A stretch of 39,571 bases of DNA from assembly GCA_013298995.1 (NCBI GenBank), contig JAAFJW010000010.1, positions 1 to 39,571 on the forward strand, read 5' to 3'. The notes under the pieces are model-generated. The model was given only the letters and a program-made list of their open reading frames with translations. It did not search any database and was not told the origin of the DNA. Shown here in pieces: positions 2,737-36,641 of this stretch. The stretch comes from Sphingobacteriales bacterium (lineage in GTDB: Bacteria > Bacteroidota > Bacteroidia > Sphingobacteriales > Sphingobacteriaceae). The first letter of the stretch is position 1; each line of letters begins with the position of its first letter. The position numbers and the translations under genes are program-made.

Positions 2737-2879
2737 TTGTAAAGTTTTACAAAGTTGATGATGGCTTTTACCTGCCCTGTTTTTGGTTGGTTTGATTTAT
2801 GATTTTATGAACAAAGTAAATAGATGTTACAAATATTGAGATATACAATTTGTAGCAGATAATAAAGCGGAGCTTTTTA

Positions 2880-3485
2880 TTAAAAATCGTCTTCAAATAT
2901 TTTCTCAATCGGAAAATTCAATTCCGGGAAACGTAAACTAGTTATGGTTTCGCCCTCAATACAGGGTTTTAAACCAATATAGGTATCGCCTTGCAAGGTA
3001 TAAACATAAATTACTTTTTCGGCTGGTTCTACAATCCAATATTCGGGTATTAGGTTTTCCTCATACAATCTAAACTTAATGCCCATTTCTTTTTTTGAAT
3101 TTCCTGGCGATAAAATTTCAATAACCAAATCGGGCGAACCAATACAACCTCTATCATCAAGTTTTGTGCGGTCGCAAATTACACACAAATCGGGTTGTAC
3201 CACAGAAAAAACAGTATTGTCGTCGGTAGATTTTTGATAATTGATTAGCCGTACATCAAAAGGGGCATAGTACAAGCCACACGGATGATCTATAAAATAA
3301 CGATCTAAATAGCGGTACAAAACCCCTGATGCAACCTGATGTCGCCTAGATGGTGCGGGGCTCATGGCAAAAATTTTACCTTTTATAAGTTCTACACGCT
3401 CTTTAAATTGCCATAACAAATAATCGGCATAAGAGTACGTTCCGTTGGGGTCCAGTTGGTTAATATTGGTAATTGCTGCACTCAT
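2880..3485 (-). CDS. Uma2 family (DUF820, PD-(D/E)XK-like) putative endonuclease, copy 1
   Basis: ELIKGKIFAMSPAPSRRHQ, VVQPDLCVICD, PDLVIEILSPGNSKKEM and YWIVEP motifs. Confidence 0.88.
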   Translation of the reverse strand: MSAAITNINQLDPNGTYSYADYLLWQFKERVELIKGKIFAMSPAPSRRHQVASGVLYRYLDRYFIDHPCGLYYAPFDVRLINYQKSTDDNTVFSVVQPDLCVICDRTKLDDRGCIGSPDLVIEILSPGNSKKEMGIKFRLYEENLIPEYWIVEPAEKVIYVYTLQGDTYIGLKPCIEGETITSLRFPELNFPIEKIFEDDF

Positions 3486-3499
3486 TTCAAAAAATTTAA

Positions 3500-4105
3500 T
3501 TAAAAATCGTCTTCAAATATTTTCTCTATCGGAAAATTCAATTCCGGGAAACGTAAACTAGTTATGGTTTCGCCTTCAATACAGGGTTTTAAACCAATAT
3601 AGGTATCGCCTTGCAAGGTATAAACATAAATTACTTTTTCGGCGGGTTCTACAATCCAATATTCGGGTATTAAGTTTTCCTCATACAATCTAAACTTAAC
3701 GCCCATTTCTTTTTTTGAATTCCCTGGCGATAAAATTTCAATAACCAAATCGGGCGAACCAATACAACCTCTATCATCAAGTTTTGTGCGGTCGCAAATT
3801 ACACACAAATCGGGTTGTACCACAGAAAAAACAGTATTATCATCGGTAGATTTTTGAAAGTTGATTAGCCGTACATCAAAAGGAGCAAAATACAATCCAC
3901 ACGGGTGATGAGCAAAATGCTGCTTTAAAAAAGTATACAAAACCCCAGCTGCTACCTGATGTCGCCTAGATGGTGCGGGGCTCATGGCAAAAATTTTACC
4001 TTTTATAAGTTCTACACGCTCTTTAAATTGCCATAACAAATAATCAGCATAAGAGTACGTTCCGTTGGGGTCCAGTTGGTTAATATTTGTAATTGCTGTA
4101 CTCAT
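3500..4105 (-). CDS. Uma2 family putative endonuclease, copy 2
   Basis: Near-identical to the flanking copies; exact 620-bp spacing. Confidence 0.88.
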   Translation of the reverse strand: MSTAITNINQLDPNGTYSYADYLLWQFKERVELIKGKIFAMSPAPSRRHQVAAGVLYTFLKQHFAHHPCGLYFAPFDVRLINFQKSTDDNTVFSVVQPDLCVICDRTKLDDRGCIGSPDLVIEILSPGNSKKEMGVKFRLYEENLIPEYWIVEPAEKVIYVYTLQGDTYIGLKPCIEGETITSLRFPELNFPIEKIFEDDF

Positions 4106-4119
4106 TTCAAAAAATTTAA

Positions 4120-4725
4120 TTAAAAATCGTCTTCAAATATTTTCTCTATCGGAAAATTCAATTCCGGGAAACGTAAACTAGTTATGGTTTCTCCTTCAAT
4201 ACAGGGTTTTAAACCAATATAGGTATCGCCTTGCAAGGTATAAACATATATTGCGTTTTCGGCTGGTTCTACAATCCAATATTCGGGTATTAAGTTTTCC
4301 TCATACAATCTAAACTTAACGCCCATTTCTTTTTTTGAATTCCCTGGCGATAAAATTTCAATAACCAAATCGGGCGAACCAATACAACCTCTATCATCAA
4401 GTTTTGTGCGGTCGCAAATTACACACAAATCGGGTTGTACCACAGAAAAAACAGTATTATCATCGGTAGATTTTTGATAATTGATTAGCCGTACATCAAA
4501 AGGGGCATCGTAAAGTCCGCAAAGATGGTTTTCAAAGAATCTATCTAGCAAGCGGTTTAATTTGCGTGAAACAACCTGATGTCGCCTAGATGGTGCGGGG
4601 CTCATGGCAAAAATTTTACCTTTTATAAGTTCTACACGCTCTTTAAATTGCCATAACAAATAATCGGCATAAGAGTACGTTCCGTTGGGATCCAGTTGGT
4701 TAATATTGGTAATTGCTGTACTCAT
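4120..4725 (-). CDS. Uma2 family putative endonuclease, copy 3 (promoter-proximal)
   Basis: Near-identical to copies 1 and 2; first gene of the array in transcription order. Confidence 0.88.
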   Translation of the reverse strand: MSTAITNINQLDPNGTYSYADYLLWQFKERVELIKGKIFAMSPAPSRRHQVVSRKLNRLLDRFFENHLCGLYDAPFDVRLINYQKSTDDNTVFSVVQPDLCVICDRTKLDDRGCIGSPDLVIEILSPGNSKKEMGVKFRLYEENLIPEYWIVEPAENAIYVYTLQGDTYIGLKPCIEGETITSLRFPELNFPIEKIFEDDF

Positions 4726-4742
4726 TTCAAAAAAATTTAACT

Positions 4743-4750
4743 CAAAAATA
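4743..4750 (-). promoter_or_regulatory. Bacteroidota-type -7 box (TATTTTTG) for the Uma2 array
   Basis: Matches TAnnTTTG upstream of copy 3; only 14-bp spacers separate the other copies. Confidence 0.4.
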
Positions 4751-5013
4751 CAAAAAAAATAAAAGTAATGGTTTAGTTTAACATTTAGCCATGTTTATAA
4801 ACTAACATCAAAGCAAATAGTTGTGCTTTAATACCTACTTAATTGTTAAATATTCTAATAATTTGATTAAAATTTAAAATTAAAGTACTATAGATAAAAT
4901 AAATTAGACTCATTTATATTTATTACATGTTAATTTACTGTTATTAAATGTAGTATGCTCTAAAATTTATTAATAAAAACATTAATTTTGAATGTTTACT
5001 ACAATATCATAAT

Positions 5014-17717: not shown

Positions 17718-18359
17718 CTATGGTTTATTGTTCAAAAAATTTTCTACTTTATGTTTCAATTCGGTTTCAAATTTTCGGAAAGCCGGTAATTGCCTTAAAA
17801 CATTAAAGTTTTCGATATTTTGGGCAACTAAATGTACCGCTTGGTGTACGTTAAAATTTTTTAGTTGCCTGCCTTTTAAACCACTCACCTGTTTTAGCAA
17901 ATCGTGTAAAACAACTTTAGGATTTATGTTTTCGACTTGCTTTAACGTTGGTAATTTTATTTCTGCTTTATAGTTTCGGTTACCTGCTGCTTTTTTAATG
18001 GCATTTTTATCAAATAATAACCAGGCTTCCATCATTTTTATGGGTATTAGGCATACTGTATTTGAGATATTATGGGCGGGTAACTGGGATTGTATTTCTT
18101 GTAACCTTTCTTCAATGATTGTTTTGGTGTTTGATTCTGCATCTCGATGGTAAAAAAGAATATCGAATGGAAAATAATCAGTTGCAAACCTTACACGAGA
18201 TTTAATGTCTTTATTTTGGGGTGGCGATTGGTGTGGTCTAAAATCAGCAAAAGTACCTTTATTAGGTATTTTTGGGTATAAATCGTCTAACAACCATTTT
18301 ATAATGTTTAATAAAGTTTTATCCGAGCTGCCATCGGCTATCAATGTGTATCGTATCAT
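17718..18359 (-). CDS. DUF4276-like / TOPRIM-like partner protein
   Basis: N-terminal LIADGSSDKTLLNIIKWLL, then FPFDILFYHRDAES and IPIKMMEAWLLFD; start codon abuts the stop of the ATPase gene. Confidence 0.65.
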   Translation of the reverse strand: MIRYTLIADGSSDKTLLNIIKWLLDDLYPKIPNKGTFADFRPHQSPPQNKDIKSRVRFATDYFPFDILFYHRDAESNTKTIIEERLQEIQSQLPAHNISNTVCLIPIKMMEAWLLFDKNAIKKAAGNRNYKAEIKLPTLKQVENINPKVVLHDLLKQVSGLKGRQLKNFNVHQAVHLVAQNIENFNVLRQLPAFRKFETELKHKVENFLNNKP

Positions 18360-19829
18360 TTAAAAATATTGAAATGGCATTTGGTACTGACCCACATTTT
18401 CGGCTACTGTTTTTCTCTTCTTTTTTATAGGTGTTATAATAGCGTTATTATCATTATTGGTTTGTTCTAAATTAGCCAAGCTATTTGATTCTAAATATGC
18501 CAAAATTTCTCCTTTTGATGTTGTATCTACAAGACTATGCTTGGTTTTCCAGGTACATCCTAATGCCGAAAAACCAGTATATTTTATTTTTTTGTTGGCT
18601 TGAGGTATGTACATTTCTTTTTCGGTTGCTAAATACAAGCTATCGTCTGAAACTGTACGTACCACCAAAGGCGAATGCGAGTTTATAATTACTTGACGAA
18701 GCGGGTTATTTTCATCAACCTCATATTCTGTATCGGTTGCTATTTCTTCTAACAGCCTAACCATTTGTTCTACTTTTTTTGGGTTTATTCCGTTTTCGGG
18801 CTCTTCTAAGCAAATTAAACTGCTGCTTAGGCTATCTTCTTTTATAATTGCTAAGCCCAAAAAACGCAATGTGCCGTCTGATAATGATTGTGCAGGCAAA
18901 ATCAAACCATCTTTAAATTTAATTTGTAAGGTTAATAAATCCCTTTTATCATCTTTATCAACATCAATTTCATCCACATTGCTTACCAGTTCTTTTAGCT
19001 TATTGGTAAGTGTTTGGTAAACATCGCCCTCTTTTTTCTCGCTATTTAACCTAAATAATGTTGCCGGTAAATTATTGCCACTAGCGGTTATTTCGGCATT
19101 TTTTACCTCATAAATAGAATTTGGTTGGCGCAGGGCACTGGGTTCAAATTGCAACATTACCCAATTACGCATTTCTTGGCGAACCAAAAAAGCCGTAGGC
19201 GATTCGGCTGTTACGGTTGATAACAGGGTTCGTGGCATTTTTTCGGCAATAAAATCGGTTGTACGCCCTTTATTACCATCTTGGTGAAGTTTTATTTTTT
19301 CGTTTTCGGTAGATATAAAAGGAATTTTTGTAGATCGTCGTCCTTCCAAAACAGAATTTAGCCATTCTTTTTTAAACTCAAAAAACAGACTGCTTTTAGT
19401 ATCTGTTTGGGTAAGGGGCAATAGTTCTTCTTTTATTATTTCAATGGGTTCTTTATCGCTATTTTCGTTGTTTAATTTAAGCTCAAGTATGTAGCGCAAG
19501 CTGGTAATAGTGGCTTTTGCCACTTGACCCAAATCATCAACGGTTTGTTTTGGTACCAACATATCCACCTCAAAATACATTTTATCGTAGTGATACTCTC
19601 CTGCTTTAAAAAATATATCTTTTATATTGGCATGTTTTTGATTTTCGCTACGGATAGATTTAGCTGCGTGTAAAATTGTGTTATCGGCTAGTTTTGATAA
19701 AAACAGTAAAGCATCAAAAAAATTAGATTTACCAATTGCATTTGCTCCTGCAATACAGGTAAATGGCCCAAAATATAAATTGGTTTCGAGCAAACTTTTA
19801 AAACCATTAATATGTATCCTTGTAACCAT
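18360..19829 (-). CDS. AAA15/AAA21-type OLD-like ABC ATPase
   Basis: HINGFKSLLETNLYFGPFTCIAGANAIGKSNFFDALLFLSKL Walker A; LSDGTLRFLGLAII signature; LICLEEPENGINP Walker B; QVIINSHSPLVV. Confidence 0.9.
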   Translation of the reverse strand: MVTRIHINGFKSLLETNLYFGPFTCIAGANAIGKSNFFDALLFLSKLADNTILHAAKSIRSENQKHANIKDIFFKAGEYHYDKMYFEVDMLVPKQTVDDLGQVAKATITSLRYILELKLNNENSDKEPIEIIKEELLPLTQTDTKSSLFFEFKKEWLNSVLEGRRSTKIPFISTENEKIKLHQDGNKGRTTDFIAEKMPRTLLSTVTAESPTAFLVRQEMRNWVMLQFEPSALRQPNSIYEVKNAEITASGNNLPATLFRLNSEKKEGDVYQTLTNKLKELVSNVDEIDVDKDDKRDLLTLQIKFKDGLILPAQSLSDGTLRFLGLAIIKEDSLSSSLICLEEPENGINPKKVEQMVRLLEEIATDTEYEVDENNPLRQVIINSHSPLVVRTVSDDSLYLATEKEMYIPQANKKIKYTGFSALGCTWKTKHSLVDTTSKGEILAYLESNSLANLEQTNNDNNAIITPIKKKRKTVAENVGQYQMPFQYF

Positions 19830-19919
19830 AAGTTAAACTCGGTTAATTATTTTTTATTTTTTTGTAATTTTTACCCAATGTAACACAATTTTTATAAAAA
19901 ATGCCCTTAGCAAGCAACC

Positions 19920-20696
19920 CTACCCTCCTTTTATTCCTTTTACAAAAGCATCAATATGTGCCAAATAATCATCTTTACCTGCCAATGTTTTCACAAATGC
20001 ACTGCCTACAATAGCACCATTGGCATATTGGTTGGCTCGGGTAAAGCTGGCATTATCAGATATACCAAAACCTATAATTAGTTTATTTTTAAGGTTCATA
20101 TCTTTAACACGCTGGTAATAAGCACTTATATCGTCCGATACGTTTAGGCTTTTGCCCGTAGTGGCCGATGAAGATAGCATATAAATAAAGCCATTAGATA
20201 GTTCATCTATTTTTCTGATTCTAGCTTCGGAGGTTTGCGGGGTAATTAAAAATATGTTGCTTAACCCATTATCTTCAAAATAGGGTTTATAAAACTCCTC
20301 GTATTCCTGTAGCGGTAAATCGGGTACAATAATGCCATTAACTCCTACCTCGGCGGCTTTTTTACAAAAATTTTGTACCCCGTATTGCAGCATTGGGTTG
20401 GCGTATCCCATTAATAAAACAGGTATTTTTACGCTTGGGCGGAGGTTTTTTAACTGCTCAAATAAAACGTTTAATGTCATCCCGTTGGCAATGGCTTCTT
20501 CGGAGCTTTTTTGAATTACAGGGCCATCGGCCAAGGGGTCCGAGTATGGGAAACCTATTTCCAAAAAATCGGCACCAGCTACTTCTAAGGCTTGGGCAAT
20601 GGGTAAAGTGGCCTCTAATTTTGGGTAGCCTGCTGTGTAATAAACAGATAATATATTGCTTTGCTTACGCTGAAAAAGTTGTTGGAGTGTGTTCAT
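19920..20696 (-). CDS. trpA: Tryptophan synthase alpha subunit
   Basis: ADFLEIGFPYSDPLADGPVIQKSSEEAIANG; GVNGIIVPDLPLQEYEEF; IIGFGIS. Confidence 0.97.
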   Translation of the reverse strand: MNTLQQLFQRKQSNILSVYYTAGYPKLEATLPIAQALEVAGADFLEIGFPYSDPLADGPVIQKSSEEAIANGMTLNVLFEQLKNLRPSVKIPVLLMGYANPMLQYGVQNFCKKAAEVGVNGIIVPDLPLQEYEEFYKPYFEDNGLSNIFLITPQTSEARIRKIDELSNGFIYMLSSSATTGKSLNVSDDISAYYQRVKDMNLKNKLIIGFGISDNASFTRANQYANGAIVGSAFVKTLAGKDDYLAHIDAFVKGIKGG

Positions 20697-21877
20697 TACA
20701 GTTTAAAATAAGTCATAAAAGTATCTAAATCTTTATCGCCCCTGCCTGATAGGCAAATAACTGCTACATCATCTTTTTTAAAAGCAATGTTTTCTAATGC
20801 AGCTAAAGCATGGCCAGTTTCTATGGCAGGAATAATGCCTTCTAATTTGCTACAAAGCATACAGGCTTGCATGGCTTGGTCATCGGTAATGGCTACATAG
20901 TTTACCCGTTTTACTTTGTGTAAGTGTGCGTGTTGTGGGCCTATGCCTGGGTAATCTAAACCTGCCGAAATAGAGTAAGGTTCAATAACTTGGCCATCAT
21001 CTGTTTGCATTAAAATGGTGCGAGAACCGTGTAAAACCCCTTCCCTACCCAATATTGATGTTGCTGCCGAGTGGCCCGAGTTTACGCCCAAGCCTGCTGC
21101 CTCGGCGGCTATTAATTGTACGTTTTCATCATCCAAAAAATGGTAAAACATGCCCATTGCATTGCTGCCACCACCTACACAGGCCAGTACATAATCTGGT
21201 TGGGAAGTGCCCGTTTGTGAAAATAATTGTGTTTTAGTTTCTTCGGATATGATGGATTGAAAAAGGGAAACCATCTCAGGATATGGGTGTGGCCCTACCA
21301 CGCTACCAATAATATAATGGGTATCTACTGGGTTGTTTATCCAATCTCGCATGGCTTCGTTGGTGGCATCTTTTAGGGTTTTACTGCCCGATGTGGCGGG
21401 TATAACCGTGGCACCCATCATTTTCATACGGGCTACATTGGGTGCTTGGCGTTTTATATCCACCTCGCCCATATAAATTACACATTCTAAACCTTTTAAT
21501 GCACAAACGGTTGCGGTTGCTACACCGTGTTGGCCTGCACCAGTTTCGGCAATAATGCGTTTTTTACCCAAGCGTTCGGCCAAAATAATTTGCCCAATGG
21601 TGTTGTTAATTTTATGTGCACCAGTATGGTTTAAATCTTCGCGTTTTAAGTAAATTGTAGCACCGTAACGCTTCGACAATCGTTCGGCGTGATACAAAGG
21701 CGAAGGCCTGCCTACATAATTTTTAAGCAAATCTTTGTATTCGGCCTGAAAAACAGGTTGATTTATTATAGATAAATAGCTATTGCGTAAATCTTCAATA
21801 TTGGGGTATAACATTTCGGGTATGTAAGCACCTCCAAAATCGCCATAATACCCTTTTTCGTTAATTCTATATTTCAT
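20696..21877 (-). CDS. trpB: Tryptophan synthase beta subunit
   Basis: GRPSPLYHAERLSKRYGATIYLKREDLNHTGAHKINNTIGQ; GAGQHGVATATVCAL; GGGSNAMGMF. Confidence 0.98.
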   Translation of the reverse strand: MKYRINEKGYYGDFGGAYIPEMLYPNIEDLRNSYLSIINQPVFQAEYKDLLKNYVGRPSPLYHAERLSKRYGATIYLKREDLNHTGAHKINNTIGQIILAERLGKKRIIAETGAGQHGVATATVCALKGLECVIYMGEVDIKRQAPNVARMKMMGATVIPATSGSKTLKDATNEAMRDWINNPVDTHYIIGSVVGPHPYPEMVSLFQSIISEETKTQLFSQTGTSQPDYVLACVGGGSNAMGMFYHFLDDENVQLIAAEAAGLGVNSGHSAATSILGREGVLHGSRTILMQTDDGQVIEPYSISAGLDYPGIGPQHAHLHKVKRVNYVAITDDQAMQACMLCSKLEGIIPAIETGHALAALENIAFKKDDVAVICLSGRGDKDLDTFMTYFKL

Positions 21878-22523
21878 TGTTTTTTAAATAAAAAAATGCT
21901 TTTTCTAATTTTATTGTATCTTTTATGCCAGGTTGGGTTTCAAATTTTGAATTCAAATCGACCCCAAAAAGCTGCGGATGTTTGATATTTTTAATCTCGG
22001 CTAAGTTATCTAAACTTATGCCACCGCTCAAAAAAAACGGAATATTTAATTTATACTTACTTAACAATTGCCAGTTAAATTGTTTGCCACTACCGCCATG
22101 TATTTCGGTTTTGGTATCCCACAAAAAATAATCTACCACGTTTTGGTAAGCCACTAACTGTTCCCAATCAAAATCATCGGCTATGCCAAAAGCTTTTATT
22201 AGGGTTAGCCCCGATGCTTTTATGGTGGCACAAAATGTAGGCGATTCGTTACCATGAAGTTGTACAGCCTGCATCCCATATAAATGGGCAAATTCTATTA
22301 CTTCGGCTTCGGTAGCGTTTACAAAAACCCCTGTTTTTATAGTTTGCTTAGGTATTGATGCTAGTACGGATTTATCAAAATCTAAACCTACAAAGCGTTT
22401 GCTTGGTGGATAAAAAATAAAACCCATAAAATCGGGTTGCAAGGCGTTTAAGTGCGCTATATTATCGGCATATTTCATGCCACAAACTTTTATTTTTAAG
22501 GGAATTGATGTTGGTTTTTGCAT
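21867..22523 (-). CDS. trpF: Phosphoribosylanthranilate isomerase
   Basis: KVCGMKYADNIAHL; MGFIFYPPSKRFVG; VQLHGNE; FLSGGISLDN. Confidence 0.95.
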   Translation of the reverse strand: MQKPTSIPLKIKVCGMKYADNIAHLNALQPDFMGFIFYPPSKRFVGLDFDKSVLASIPKQTIKTGVFVNATEAEVIEFAHLYGMQAVQLHGNESPTFCATIKASGLTLIKAFGIADDFDWEQLVAYQNVVDYFLWDTKTEIHGGSGKQFNWQLLSKYKLNIPFFLSGGISLDNLAEIKNIKHPQLFGVDLNSKFETQPGIKDTIKLEKAFFYLKNNEI

Positions 22524-22580
22524 TATATTTTAGGTTTTGAGAGGATTAAGCTAATATAGTTTGCATACTTAATCAGCCTA

Positions 22581-23573
22581 TTACCTACTTAATTTTTTAA
22601 TTTCTTTGTCTAAATCAGATACGTATTTTTTATCCTGTATAATCCTAAATTGCTCATATTCTAAATACGCTTTTTCAACAGCTTGTTCGTGGGTAATATT
22701 CCCTGCATTGGGTAAAATATCCAAACTATTACTATCCAAAAATTTATTGGTTCGTTCTAACCAATCTTTCATATTCATCACTTGATTTCTTCGGGCACTA
22801 AACTCGGCTAAATCCAAAAAAGCACTCACCAATAAATTTAAGTCGCCAATTTCATTTTCGGCTAAATAATTTTTAGCAATACTTACATCGCTTTTCAATA
22901 TTTTACCTTCTGGCGAGTTTTTCCAAGATGTTAAACCCATAAAATCTTTAGATTTATCTACCCTATCATATATTAGTTCGGCAACTGTTTTACCTGTAAT
23001 GGCAAAATGTAGTTTGTTTTGCACCATTTTATAAAATAGTTTGGTTTCATGTGAATTTTTATTGTAGTCGGCACTGCATTGTTCAAAAATATCTCCTAGC
23101 TTTTGATATAATCTACGTTCGCTATTTCGTATTTCTCTAATACGCTCCAATAGTTCATCAAAATAATCATTTCCAAAGGGTTTACCGTTTTTAAGCATTT
23201 CATCGTTTAATACAAAACCCTTTATGATAAATTCTTTTAAGGTTTGAGTAGACCAAATTCTAAATTGAGTAGCCTGTTTTGAGTTTACACGGTAGCCTAC
23301 GGCTATAATTGCATCGAGGTTGTAAAACTCAATATTTCTTTTTACTTGTCTGGCACCTTCTTTTTGAACAGTTTCCAAAATGGAAGTAGTTGCTTGTTGT
23401 TGCAATTCGCCTGTGTCATAAATATTTGCCAAATGTTTACTTATCGCAGGCACCTCTACGCCAAACAATGTTGCAATATCCTTTTGACTTAACCAAAAGT
23501 TTTCATTTTGGTAAGTAACATTTATATTCACGTTACCTGTTTCGTTGCTATAAAATATTATTTTATTCTCCAT
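22581..23573 (-). CDS. RhuM family protein
   Basis: FYSNETGNVNINVTYQNENFWLSQKDIATLFGVEVPAISKHLANIYDTGEL; KRNIEFYNLDAIIAVGYRVNSKQATQFRIWST. Confidence 0.92.
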   Translation of the reverse strand: MENKIIFYSNETGNVNINVTYQNENFWLSQKDIATLFGVEVPAISKHLANIYDTGELQQQATTSILETVQKEGARQVKRNIEFYNLDAIIAVGYRVNSKQATQFRIWSTQTLKEFIIKGFVLNDEMLKNGKPFGNDYFDELLERIREIRNSERRLYQKLGDIFEQCSADYNKNSHETKLFYKMVQNKLHFAITGKTVAELIYDRVDKSKDFMGLTSWKNSPEGKILKSDVSIAKNYLAENEIGDLNLLVSAFLDLAEFSARRNQVMNMKDWLERTNKFLDSNSLDILPNAGNITHEQAVEKAYLEYEQFRIIQDKKYVSDLDKEIKKLSR

Positions 23574-33987: not shown

Positions 33988-34293
33988 TCAGACTTTAATC
34001 TCAACCTCTACACCCGAAGGAAGCTCTAATTTCATAAGTGCGTCAACCGTTTTGGCCGATGCGCTGTAAATATCCAACAACCTTTTGTACGAGCATAATT
34101 GAAACTGCTCTCTCGCTTTTTTGTTTACGTGTGGTGAACGTAATACGGTAAAAATTTTCTTTTCGGTAGGTAAGGGAATTGGTCCGCTTACTACTGCACC
34201 CGTAGGTTTTACTGTTTTTACAATTTTCTCGGCCGATTTATCAACCAAGTTGTAATCGTACGATTTTAATTTAATTCTAATTCTTTGGCTCAT
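33988..34293 (-). CDS. rpsJ: 30S ribosomal protein S10
   Basis: [43 protein letters not shown]. Confidence 0.97.
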
Positions 34294-34352: not shown

Positions 34353-34522
34353 ATGGTTAATTATTAATTGTTAATGGTAAATGGTTAATTGTTAATGGTT
34401 AATTGTTAATTGTTAATTGTTAATGGTTAATGGTTAATTATTAATGGTTAATTGTTAATTATTAATGGTTAATGGTTAATGGAATGGCTAATTAATAATT
34501 AACCATTTAACCATTAACAATT
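34353..34522. repeat. Heptamer-based AT-rich tandem repeat (TTAATGG/TTAATTG/TTAATTA) with a terminal inverted arm
   Basis: About 18 near-consecutive 7-nt units; 34366-34390 is an inverted match to 34497-34522 with one 1-nt indel. Confidence 0.85.
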
Positions 34523-34532
34523 ATGTTTATGT

Positions 34533-36641
34533 TTATGCGTTTGCTTTAGCGCCTTTAACTTTGGCTACCACTTCATCTTGTACACCTTTGGGTGCAGGGT
34601 CGTAGTGGTTAAATTCCATGGTTGAAGTTGCCCTGCCCGATGTAATGGTACGTAACTGGGTTACATAACCAAACATTTCTGATAAAGGTACCAATGCTTT
34701 AATTACTTGCGCACCTGCTCGGGTATCCATACCTTGTAACTGGCCTCTTCTACGGTTTAAATCGCCCATTACATCACCCATGTTTTCTTCTGGTGTTAAT
34801 ACCTCTATTTTCATAATAGGCTCCATTAAAACGGGTTTACATTTTGGTAAGGCTTCTCTAAACGCATTACGGGCAGCAAGCTCAAATGATAAAGCATCTG
34901 AATCGACAGCGTGAAACGAACCATCAATTAAGCGCACTTTCATTGAAGTAACTGGGTAACCAGCCAATACACCGTTTGATAGCGATGCTTCGAAACCTTT
35001 TTGTACCGAAGGTATAAACTCGCGAGGAATAGAACCGCCCGATATTTCGTTTACAAACTCTAAACCAATTTTAGTTTCATCTTCTACTGGCGAAATAATA
35101 ACTTGTATATCGGCAAATTTACCACGGCCACCCGTTTGTTTTTTGTAGGTTTCACGATGCTGCACTGTACCTGTAATAGCTTCTTTGTAAGCAACTTGTG
35201 GCGCACCTTGGTTTACTTCTACTTTAAATTCGCGTTTTAACCTATCCATCAAAATATCTAGGTGTAACTCGCCCATACCTTGTATAATGGTTTGGCCACT
35301 ATCTTCATCAGTATGTACACGGAAAGTTGGATCTTCTTCGGCTAGTTTATTTAAAGCCATACCCATTTTATCTACATCGGCCTGTGTTTTAGGCTCAATA
35401 GCTAAACCAATAACTGGGTCGGGGAAATTCATCGACTCTAAAATAATCGGATTTTTTTCTTCGCAAAGCGTATCTCCAGTTTTAATATCTTTAAAACCTA
35501 CTACTGCAGCAATATCGCCAGCACCTACATTAGGTATTGGGTTTTGCTTATTGGCATGCATTTGGAAGATACGAGAAATACGCTCTTTATTTCCCGAACG
35601 TACATTATATACATACGAACCAGCTTCTAAATTACCAGAGTAAACACGTATAAAACATAAACGACCTACAAATGGGTCGGTTGCAATTTTAAATGCTAAA
35701 GCTGCAAACGGTTCTTTTTCATCGGGTTTACGTAAAATTTCTTCGCCTGTATCGGGGTGTGTACCTACAATACCTTCTTGGTCCATTGGCGATGGCAATA
35801 ATTCCATCACATAATCCAACATGGTTTGTACACCTTTATTTTTGAAAGACGAACCACATACCATTGGTACAATTGAAGCATCTAAAACGGCTTTGCGTAA
35901 AGCGTCTAATATTTCACGTTCGGTAATGCTTTCTGGAGCTTCAAAAAATTTCTCCATCAAGCTCTCATCATAATCCGCAACCGATTCTAATAATTTTTCT
36001 CTCCACTCGGTAGCTTCTTCAATCAAATCTGCAGGAATTGGTACTTCGGTAAAGGTCATGCCTTTATCCTCTTCGTTCCAGATAATACCTCTCCAGTTTA
36101 TTAAATCAACCACGCCTTTAAATTGGTCTTCGCTACCAATAGGTATTTGTAATGGCACAGCATTACTGCCTAGCATATCTTTAACTTGTTTTACTACTTT
36201 TAGGAAATCGGCACCAGCCCTATCCATTTTGTTCACAAAACCTATGCGAGATACGCTGTAATTATTGGCTAAGCGCCAGTTGGTTTCTGATTGTGGCTCT
36301 ACACCATCAACGGCCGAAAACAAAAACACCAAACCATCCAATACACGTAGCGAGCGGTTAACTTCAACCGTAAAATCAACGTGGCCTGGGGTATCAATAA
36401 TGTTTATGTGGTAATTATCGCCTCTATATTTCCAGTTTACGGTAGTAGCTGCCGATGTAATGGTGATACCACGTTCTTGTTCTTGCGCCATCCAATCCAT
36501 TGTTGCAGCACCATCATGTACTTCACCAATTTTATGACTAACACCAGCGTAATACAAAATACGTTCGGTTGTGGTGGTTTTGCCGGCATCAATGTGGGCG
36601 GCAATACCAATGTTTCTTGTAAATCTTAAATCTCTAGACAT
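34533..36641 (-). CDS. fusA: Translation elongation factor G
   Basis: [36 protein letters not shown]; full-length EF-G domains. Confidence 0.98.

Follow-up and report, generated by a model that had tools for sequence, protein, structure and literature searches.

What keeps three neighbouring genes nearly identical along most of their length while one short internal segment differs widely from copy to copy? The question is raised by a tandem array of Uma2 genes (PF05685, also DUF820 or COG4636) in the window, by which we mean the whole 39,571-nucleotide stretch of DNA that was analysed; the source genome amounts to 2.78 Mb in 211 contigs. The Uma2/DUF820/COG4636 nucleases have been treated by Feder and Bujnicki (2005; PMC551604) and by Makarova et al. 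(2009; PMC2701414). In the available text of the former, they are proposed to be selfish and account for over 2% of the genes of Gloeobacter, and in that of the latter they are proposed to be solo toxins that mostly form cassettes of paralogs. The searchable literature yielded neither an established Uma2 function nor a description of a variable helix in Uma2. We are aware of no biochemical activity, target or phenotype of the proteins described here. The array comprises the following features.

2737 to 4913, no strand: stretch missing from the sister genomes G015 and G016 at the same site (approximate limits of array insertion or sister loss)
2880 to 3485, minus strand: Uma2 copy 1 (201 aa), predicted PD-(D/E)XK nuclease; intact ORF; PF05685 E 1.4e-30
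3264 to 3335, minus strand: variable cassette of copy 1, codons 51-74 (VASGVLYRYLDRYFIDHPCGLYYA); 31-38% nucleotide difference from copies 2 and 3, flanks about 2%
3486 to 3499, minus strand: 14-bp spacer between copies 2 and 1; plus strand TTCAAAAAATTTAA; identical to the spacer between copies 3 and 2
3500 to 4105, minus strand: Uma2 copy 2 (201 aa); intact ORF; PF05685 E 6.6e-31; PADLOC PDC-S03 E 1.8e-44; AlphaFold mean pLDDT 91.9
3884 to 3955, minus strand: variable cassette of copy 2, codons 51-74 (VAAGVLYTFLKQHFAHHPCGLYFA); nucleotide difference 31% from copy 1 and 56% from copy 3; modelled helix 47-64
4106 to 4119, minus strand: 14-bp spacer between copies 3 and 2; plus strand TTCAAAAAATTTAA
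4120 to 4725, minus strand: Uma2 copy 3 (201 aa), transcribed first of the three; intact ORF; PF05685 E 2e-32; AlphaFold mean pLDDT 92.0
4504 to 4575, minus strand: variable cassette of copy 3, codons 51-74 (VVSRKLNRLLDRFFENHLCGLYDA); nucleotide difference 38% from copy 1 and 56% from copy 2; modelled helix 47-64

The copies start exactly 620 bp apart, and each consists of an intact ORF of 201 codons on the minus strand. The first-pass annotation had described three Uma2 genes with this period and with 14-bp spacers, and both its description and its coordinates were correct. The PF05685 profile scored copies 1, 2 and 3 at 106.5, 107.5 and 112.5 bits, against a curated cut-off of 27. When the sister genomes were aligned, the DNA match ended at 2735 and resumed at 4914, with about 84 and 64 bp in the gap in G015 and G016, respectively. 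The array is neighboured by genes for a DUF4139 protein and a secreted protein. According to the ORF list of the window, the roughly 2.2-kb array stretch absent from the sisters holds no transposase or recombinase; no methyltransferase ORF, as expected of a restriction-modification system, was found adjoining the array, and no same-strand antitoxin ORF of at least 80 aa, as expected of a type II toxin-antitoxin system, was found within or beside it, where the spacers measure 14 bp. Among the ORFs of the window, which were inspected by eye and not all scanned, none was recognisable as a reverse transcriptase, and a second copy of a cassette (template repeat) was not found elsewhere in the source genome.

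Several other features of the window were recorded. Candidate defence genes interrupt a tryptophan cluster at 17718-23573: a PADLOC HEC-01A/B pair (ATPase, 18360-19829; partner, 17718-18359) adjoins trpA, while genes resembling trpF and trpD flank a RhuM-like gene (PDC-S05, 22581-23573). The heptamer ATGGTTA is repeated head to tail about 18.6 times at 34353-34482, with a ribosomal protein S10-like gene (33988-34293) on one side and a fusA-like gene (34533-36641) on the other, and a 33-nt inverted repeat, with arms 88% complementary and 48 nt apart, is found at 797-910.

The differences between the three copies were concentrated in codons 51-74. For the pairs 1/2, 1/3 and 2/3, these 72 nt hold 22, 27 and 40 of 35, 40 and 50 nucleotide differences in total (Fisher p = 9e-14, 3e-18 and 2e-33, the pairwise p-values here and below being computed without correction for shared ancestry), which corresponds to a divergence of 31, 38 and 56% in the segment and of 1.9-2.4% in the remainder of the gene. 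The three cassettes thus differ beyond chance fluctuation. There are no indels between the copies, and the edges of the peak are sharp: within the segment, the first difference lies at nt 153-155 and the last at nt 217-222, while outside it the nearest difference lies at nt 60 or nt 36 upstream and at nt 246 or 264 downstream. Sharp edges without indels had been reported in the first-pass annotation and were borne out; its estimate by hand that about a third of the positions differ between copies 1 and 3 compares with a measured 37.5%.

The silent sites followed the same pattern. Flank dS was 0.07-0.10, whereas segment dS, which rests on 13-16 synonymous sites per pair, was at least 1.2 in every copy pair and near saturation (synonymous-site Fisher test of segment against flank, p = 1e-4, 2e-8 and 3e-16 for pairs 1/2, 1/3 and 2/3). 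Because divergence at the silent sites matches that of the other sites, the segment is older than the frame, which requires recombination, either homogenising the frame or importing a foreign segment, and cannot result from fast amino-acid change in young duplicates. Recombination is also indicated by the incongruence of copies 2 and 3, which have the closest flanks (1.9%) yet the most distant segments (56%). The contrast between flank and segment dS demonstrates, at the level of sequence, homogenisation of the frame or an equivalent process. Classical diversifying selection was rejected as the main signature, since in almost all pairs counted segment dN was lower than dS, although dS was near saturation. 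The dN/dS comparison by region proposed earlier did reveal a local divergence peak. The accompanying suggestion, that gene conversion homogenises the gene while one segment diversifies, held in part: recombination does set one diverged segment apart from a homogenised frame, but accelerated amino-acid change did not stand, given that dN is below dS, that silent sites are equally diverged and that some orthologs keep the segment.

Uma2 genes were collected from 80 loci in other genomes and by genome searches. Tandem pairs from Raineya (5% divergence in the flanks, 39% in the segment), Pedobacter terrae (8%, 35%), Niabella (8%, 36%), a MAG labelled Rickettsiales (10%, 47%) and the genomes G343 (9%, 40%) and G354 (13%, 39%) all peak at the same codons as the source array. 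The Pedobacter sample came from the genus to which G377 belongs (its locus aligns with that of Pedobacter terrae) and took in two syntenic loci, one from 51 genomes and one from 31, with both flanks matching the reference in 41/50 and 29/30. In 32 of the 34 Pedobacter arrays, which have 2-4 copies, the most divergent 20-codon window fell on the segment, starting at codon 42-54 and spanning codons 42-73. Uniform divergence among paralogs elsewhere, which would have spoken against the first-pass reading, was thus not what was observed, in Pedobacter or in the other genera. Several of the Pedobacter array genomes are single contigs of 5-6 Mb, and a draft-assembly artefact is therefore not the cause of the pattern. 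Copy number at one Pedobacter locus varies from 1 to 4. On viral contigs, two distant Uma2 genes only were found, 36% apart in nucleotides.

Single-copy orthologs at syntenic sites of sister species also carried the peak. The loci L059 and L060 are 93% identical over 5.4 kb with a segment that is 44% different, and L040 and L096 are 94% identical over 7.9 kb with a segment that is 28% different; between L201 and L207 the difference was 3.5% outside the segment and 27.5% inside. In another phylum, two plasmids of Leptospirillum ferrooxidans show 34 differences in the 75 nt of the segment (45%) versus 20 in 486 nt outside it (4%; p = 5e-20). No peak was seen in one cyanobacterial plasmid ortholog pair, the sole cyanobacterial pair compared, which belongs to a subfamily without the His-Gln pair. 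Cyanobacteria are described as the main home of the Uma2 family, which is largest there. On the Anabaena cylindrica plasmid pANACY.03 (L278, 1-2913), Uma2 has a class I DNA methyltransferase gene on one side and a gene for a restriction specificity subunit on the other. On the Manganitrophus plasmids L274, L275 and L276, Uma2 follows a DUF2384/RES toxin-antitoxin-like pair, and in the aligned pair L274 and L276 the Uma2 segment is identical.

Other orthologs have kept the segment. There was no amino-acid change (0%) in the segment between L036 and L038 although flank dS was 0.69, and segment dN was 0.04 between L042 and L096 although flank dS was 1.9. Since some orthologs keep the segment while other genes at the same site differ only there, the segments act like types: the same type may be retained in different species, and a given site may come to hold another. 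Type sharing was defined as a segment amino-acid difference of at most 15%, and was scored in Pedobacter for pairs with a frame difference of at most 10%. A segment type was shared in none of 18 within-array pairs versus 15 of 36 between-genome pairs (Fisher p = 9e-4). When genes were shuffled among arrays, 4.3 within-array pairs at or below 25% difference were expected and none was observed (p = 0.0065), while at 15% the p-value was 0.10. This non-repetition speaks against a tolerant region free of function, with a strength that varies with the control used.

As to the origin of new types, cassette exchange is likely from these comparisons; differential loss from older arrays is the alternative, and the change in copy number between 1 and 4 could explain much. 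Exchange with other Uma2 paralogs had been proposed for the source array, and the part of the proposal that places the donor among the paralogs of this genome found no support: the other matches there, three intact genes and one deleted copy, are 55-61% identical to the array, and none of the three cassettes matched outside it. A claim of cassette transfer between species was dropped, the signal being present in 2 of 445 pairs (p<1e-3), which is too few. Uma2 arrays also undergo deletion decay, as seen in locus L007 (contig C200 of the source genome, G000): at 1498-1667, just upstream of an intact Uma2 gene, lies a near-identical second copy that has lost its middle, its first 31 codons being joined to the last 29 in another frame.

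The models of copies 2 and 3 generated by AlphaFold (mean pLDDT 92) place a helix at residues 47-64 in both cassette versions (pLDDT 96-97), followed by a strand at 70-73. The copy 2 model matched the PD-(D/E)XK structures 6okh (E 9e-18), 9y1l, 3ot2 and 1wdj, each of which has two or more chains. H49, D99, E123 and K137 are shared by all of 90 aligned sequences, the three copies among them, and by a reading of the alignment against all3650 they correspond to the predicted active site of the family (PD...E...K and an auxiliary His); K137 falls in the second helix of the model. The variable helix starts at the invariant H49-Q50 of this predicted site, and in the available text of PMC551604 the histidine corresponding to H49 is suggested to bind metal or substrate. 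The variable unit is taken to be the core helix alphaA, namely residues ~51-68, together with positions 70 and 73. Hydrophobic residues with less variation occupy positions 52, 56, 60, 63 and 64, and most other helix positions vary, a pattern consistent with an inward-facing stripe that is conserved and an outward face that varies. The earlier proposal that the segment corresponds to a helix or surface element therefore agrees with the models, in which it is mostly one helix, and with the hydrophobic/variable pattern of its positions. Among distant relatives, no 18-residue stretch varies more than the segment, but residues ~165-187 come close; because of the latter, the distinctive feature is the peak among otherwise near-identical copies. 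Net charge per residue was +0.10 at the variable segment positions versus -0.002 at other variable positions, a comparison of related sequences whose p-value is not literal. The source array cassettes have a net charge of 0 to +1 only and are rich in aromatic and aliphatic residues.

With moderate confidence, we propose that Uma2 combines a constant nuclease frame with an exchangeable specificity helix, the frames being homogenised by recombination and the arrays acting as small repertoires. Under this proposal, the array would encode three versions of one solitary PD-(D/E)XK nuclease, with the same catalytic frame and a different alphaA in each. Recombination would homogenise the frame and keep or move the cassettes as units, aided by the conserved flanking DNA that encodes PAPSxxHQ and APFDVRL. 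Selection would retain copies with different helices because the helix would set what the nuclease recognises, and the result would be a repertoire of nucleases with different targets, directed against foreign DNA or serving selfish maintenance. That the helix sets specificity is the best reading of type conservation and of non-repetition within arrays, and it makes plausible the specificity-determining region suggested in the first-pass annotation. A narrower version is held more tentatively: that Uma2 proteins are single-gene nucleases in which alphaA is an exchangeable target-recognition cassette of ~24 codons, and that the arrays are non-redundant specificity repertoires whose frame is kept uniform by recombination. 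The likeliest ligand may be nucleic acid, which is mildly favoured by the start of the helix at the predicted active-site histidine and by the more basic variable positions, a charge bias that is modest.

A partner or inhibitor surface is a serious rival as the ligand. The helix might be a protein-protein specificity element, either a homodimer-matching surface that keeps neighbouring copies from mixing, or a surface for a partner, antitoxin or phage inhibitor in an arms race; we consider this possible, if on the unlikely side. It would account for non-repetition within arrays, if copies need not to mix, and for the sharing of types between species, as balancing selection by an antagonist; it is also compatible with the at least two chains in all four solved relatives and with the aromatic- and aliphatic-rich, nearly neutral source cassettes. 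Against these points stand the variable positions of the segment (on average, more basic residues and fewer acidic ones than at variable positions elsewhere), the start of the helix at the active site predicted in PMC551604, and the family itself, for which no conserved partner gene is reported in the available text of that paper.

Two explanations that dispense with specificity were also weighed. The segment might be merely tolerant, a neutral island that persists where conversion tracts stop at the diverged sequence, and this has the merit that conversion needs matching sequence, whereby a diverged island could protect itself, and that dN is below dS with no excess of amino-acid change. We regard it as improbable, given that the same codons are affected in nearly all arrays, in single-copy syntenic genes and in another phylum, that some orthologs hold the amino acids of the segment while silent sites in the flanks diverge, that array mates in Pedobacter share no type, and that the inward stripe of the helix is conserved. 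Less probable still is an artefact of assembly, in which strain variants or a collapsed repeat would have produced the three-copy array. The 211-contig genome leaves room for it in one respect, as an identical stretch of more than 200 bp in copies 2 and 3 may be too long for short reads to span, and the copy number could be wrong; however, exact spacers and three distinct cassettes lie on one contig, the same architecture is found in the single-contig genomes G448 (4 copies), G518, G533, G547 and G507, and the same pattern separates the two complete Leptospirillum plasmids.

The variable helix shows experimenters which residues to swap, and natural protein pairs that differ almost only there are available. 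The array copies have the Pfam family, the fold and the predicted active-site residues of the Uma2 nucleases of PMC551604 and PMC2701414, but the available text of these papers does not contain the single hypervariable helix, its recurrence in arrays or the homogenised frames. Copy 2 matched four models of the PADLOC candidate defence gene PDC-S03 (best E 1.8e-44), which is a candidate label for predicted defence only, and the models are silent on the variable helix. Diversity-generating retroelements likewise produce a localised variable region in a constant gene; they mutate adenines, usually act at the C-terminus and need a reverse transcriptase, whereas the Uma2 types are old, are shared by different species, differ at silent sites of every kind and lie in an internal region. 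The target recognition domains of type I restriction S genes (Furuta et al., 2011; PMC3077401) also combine a conserved frame with exchangeable variable parts; recombination is thought to occur there at flanking conserved sequence, and allelic types are found at one locus, as in Uma2. In type I S genes, the cassette is a whole domain of a subunit that has no nuclease activity and works with a methyltransferase partner, while in the Uma2 array, which has no adjoining methyltransferase, a cassette of ~24 codons lies inside the nuclease itself. Uma2 may add an example of frame-and-cassette evolution in which the unit is a single helix and not an entire recognition domain.
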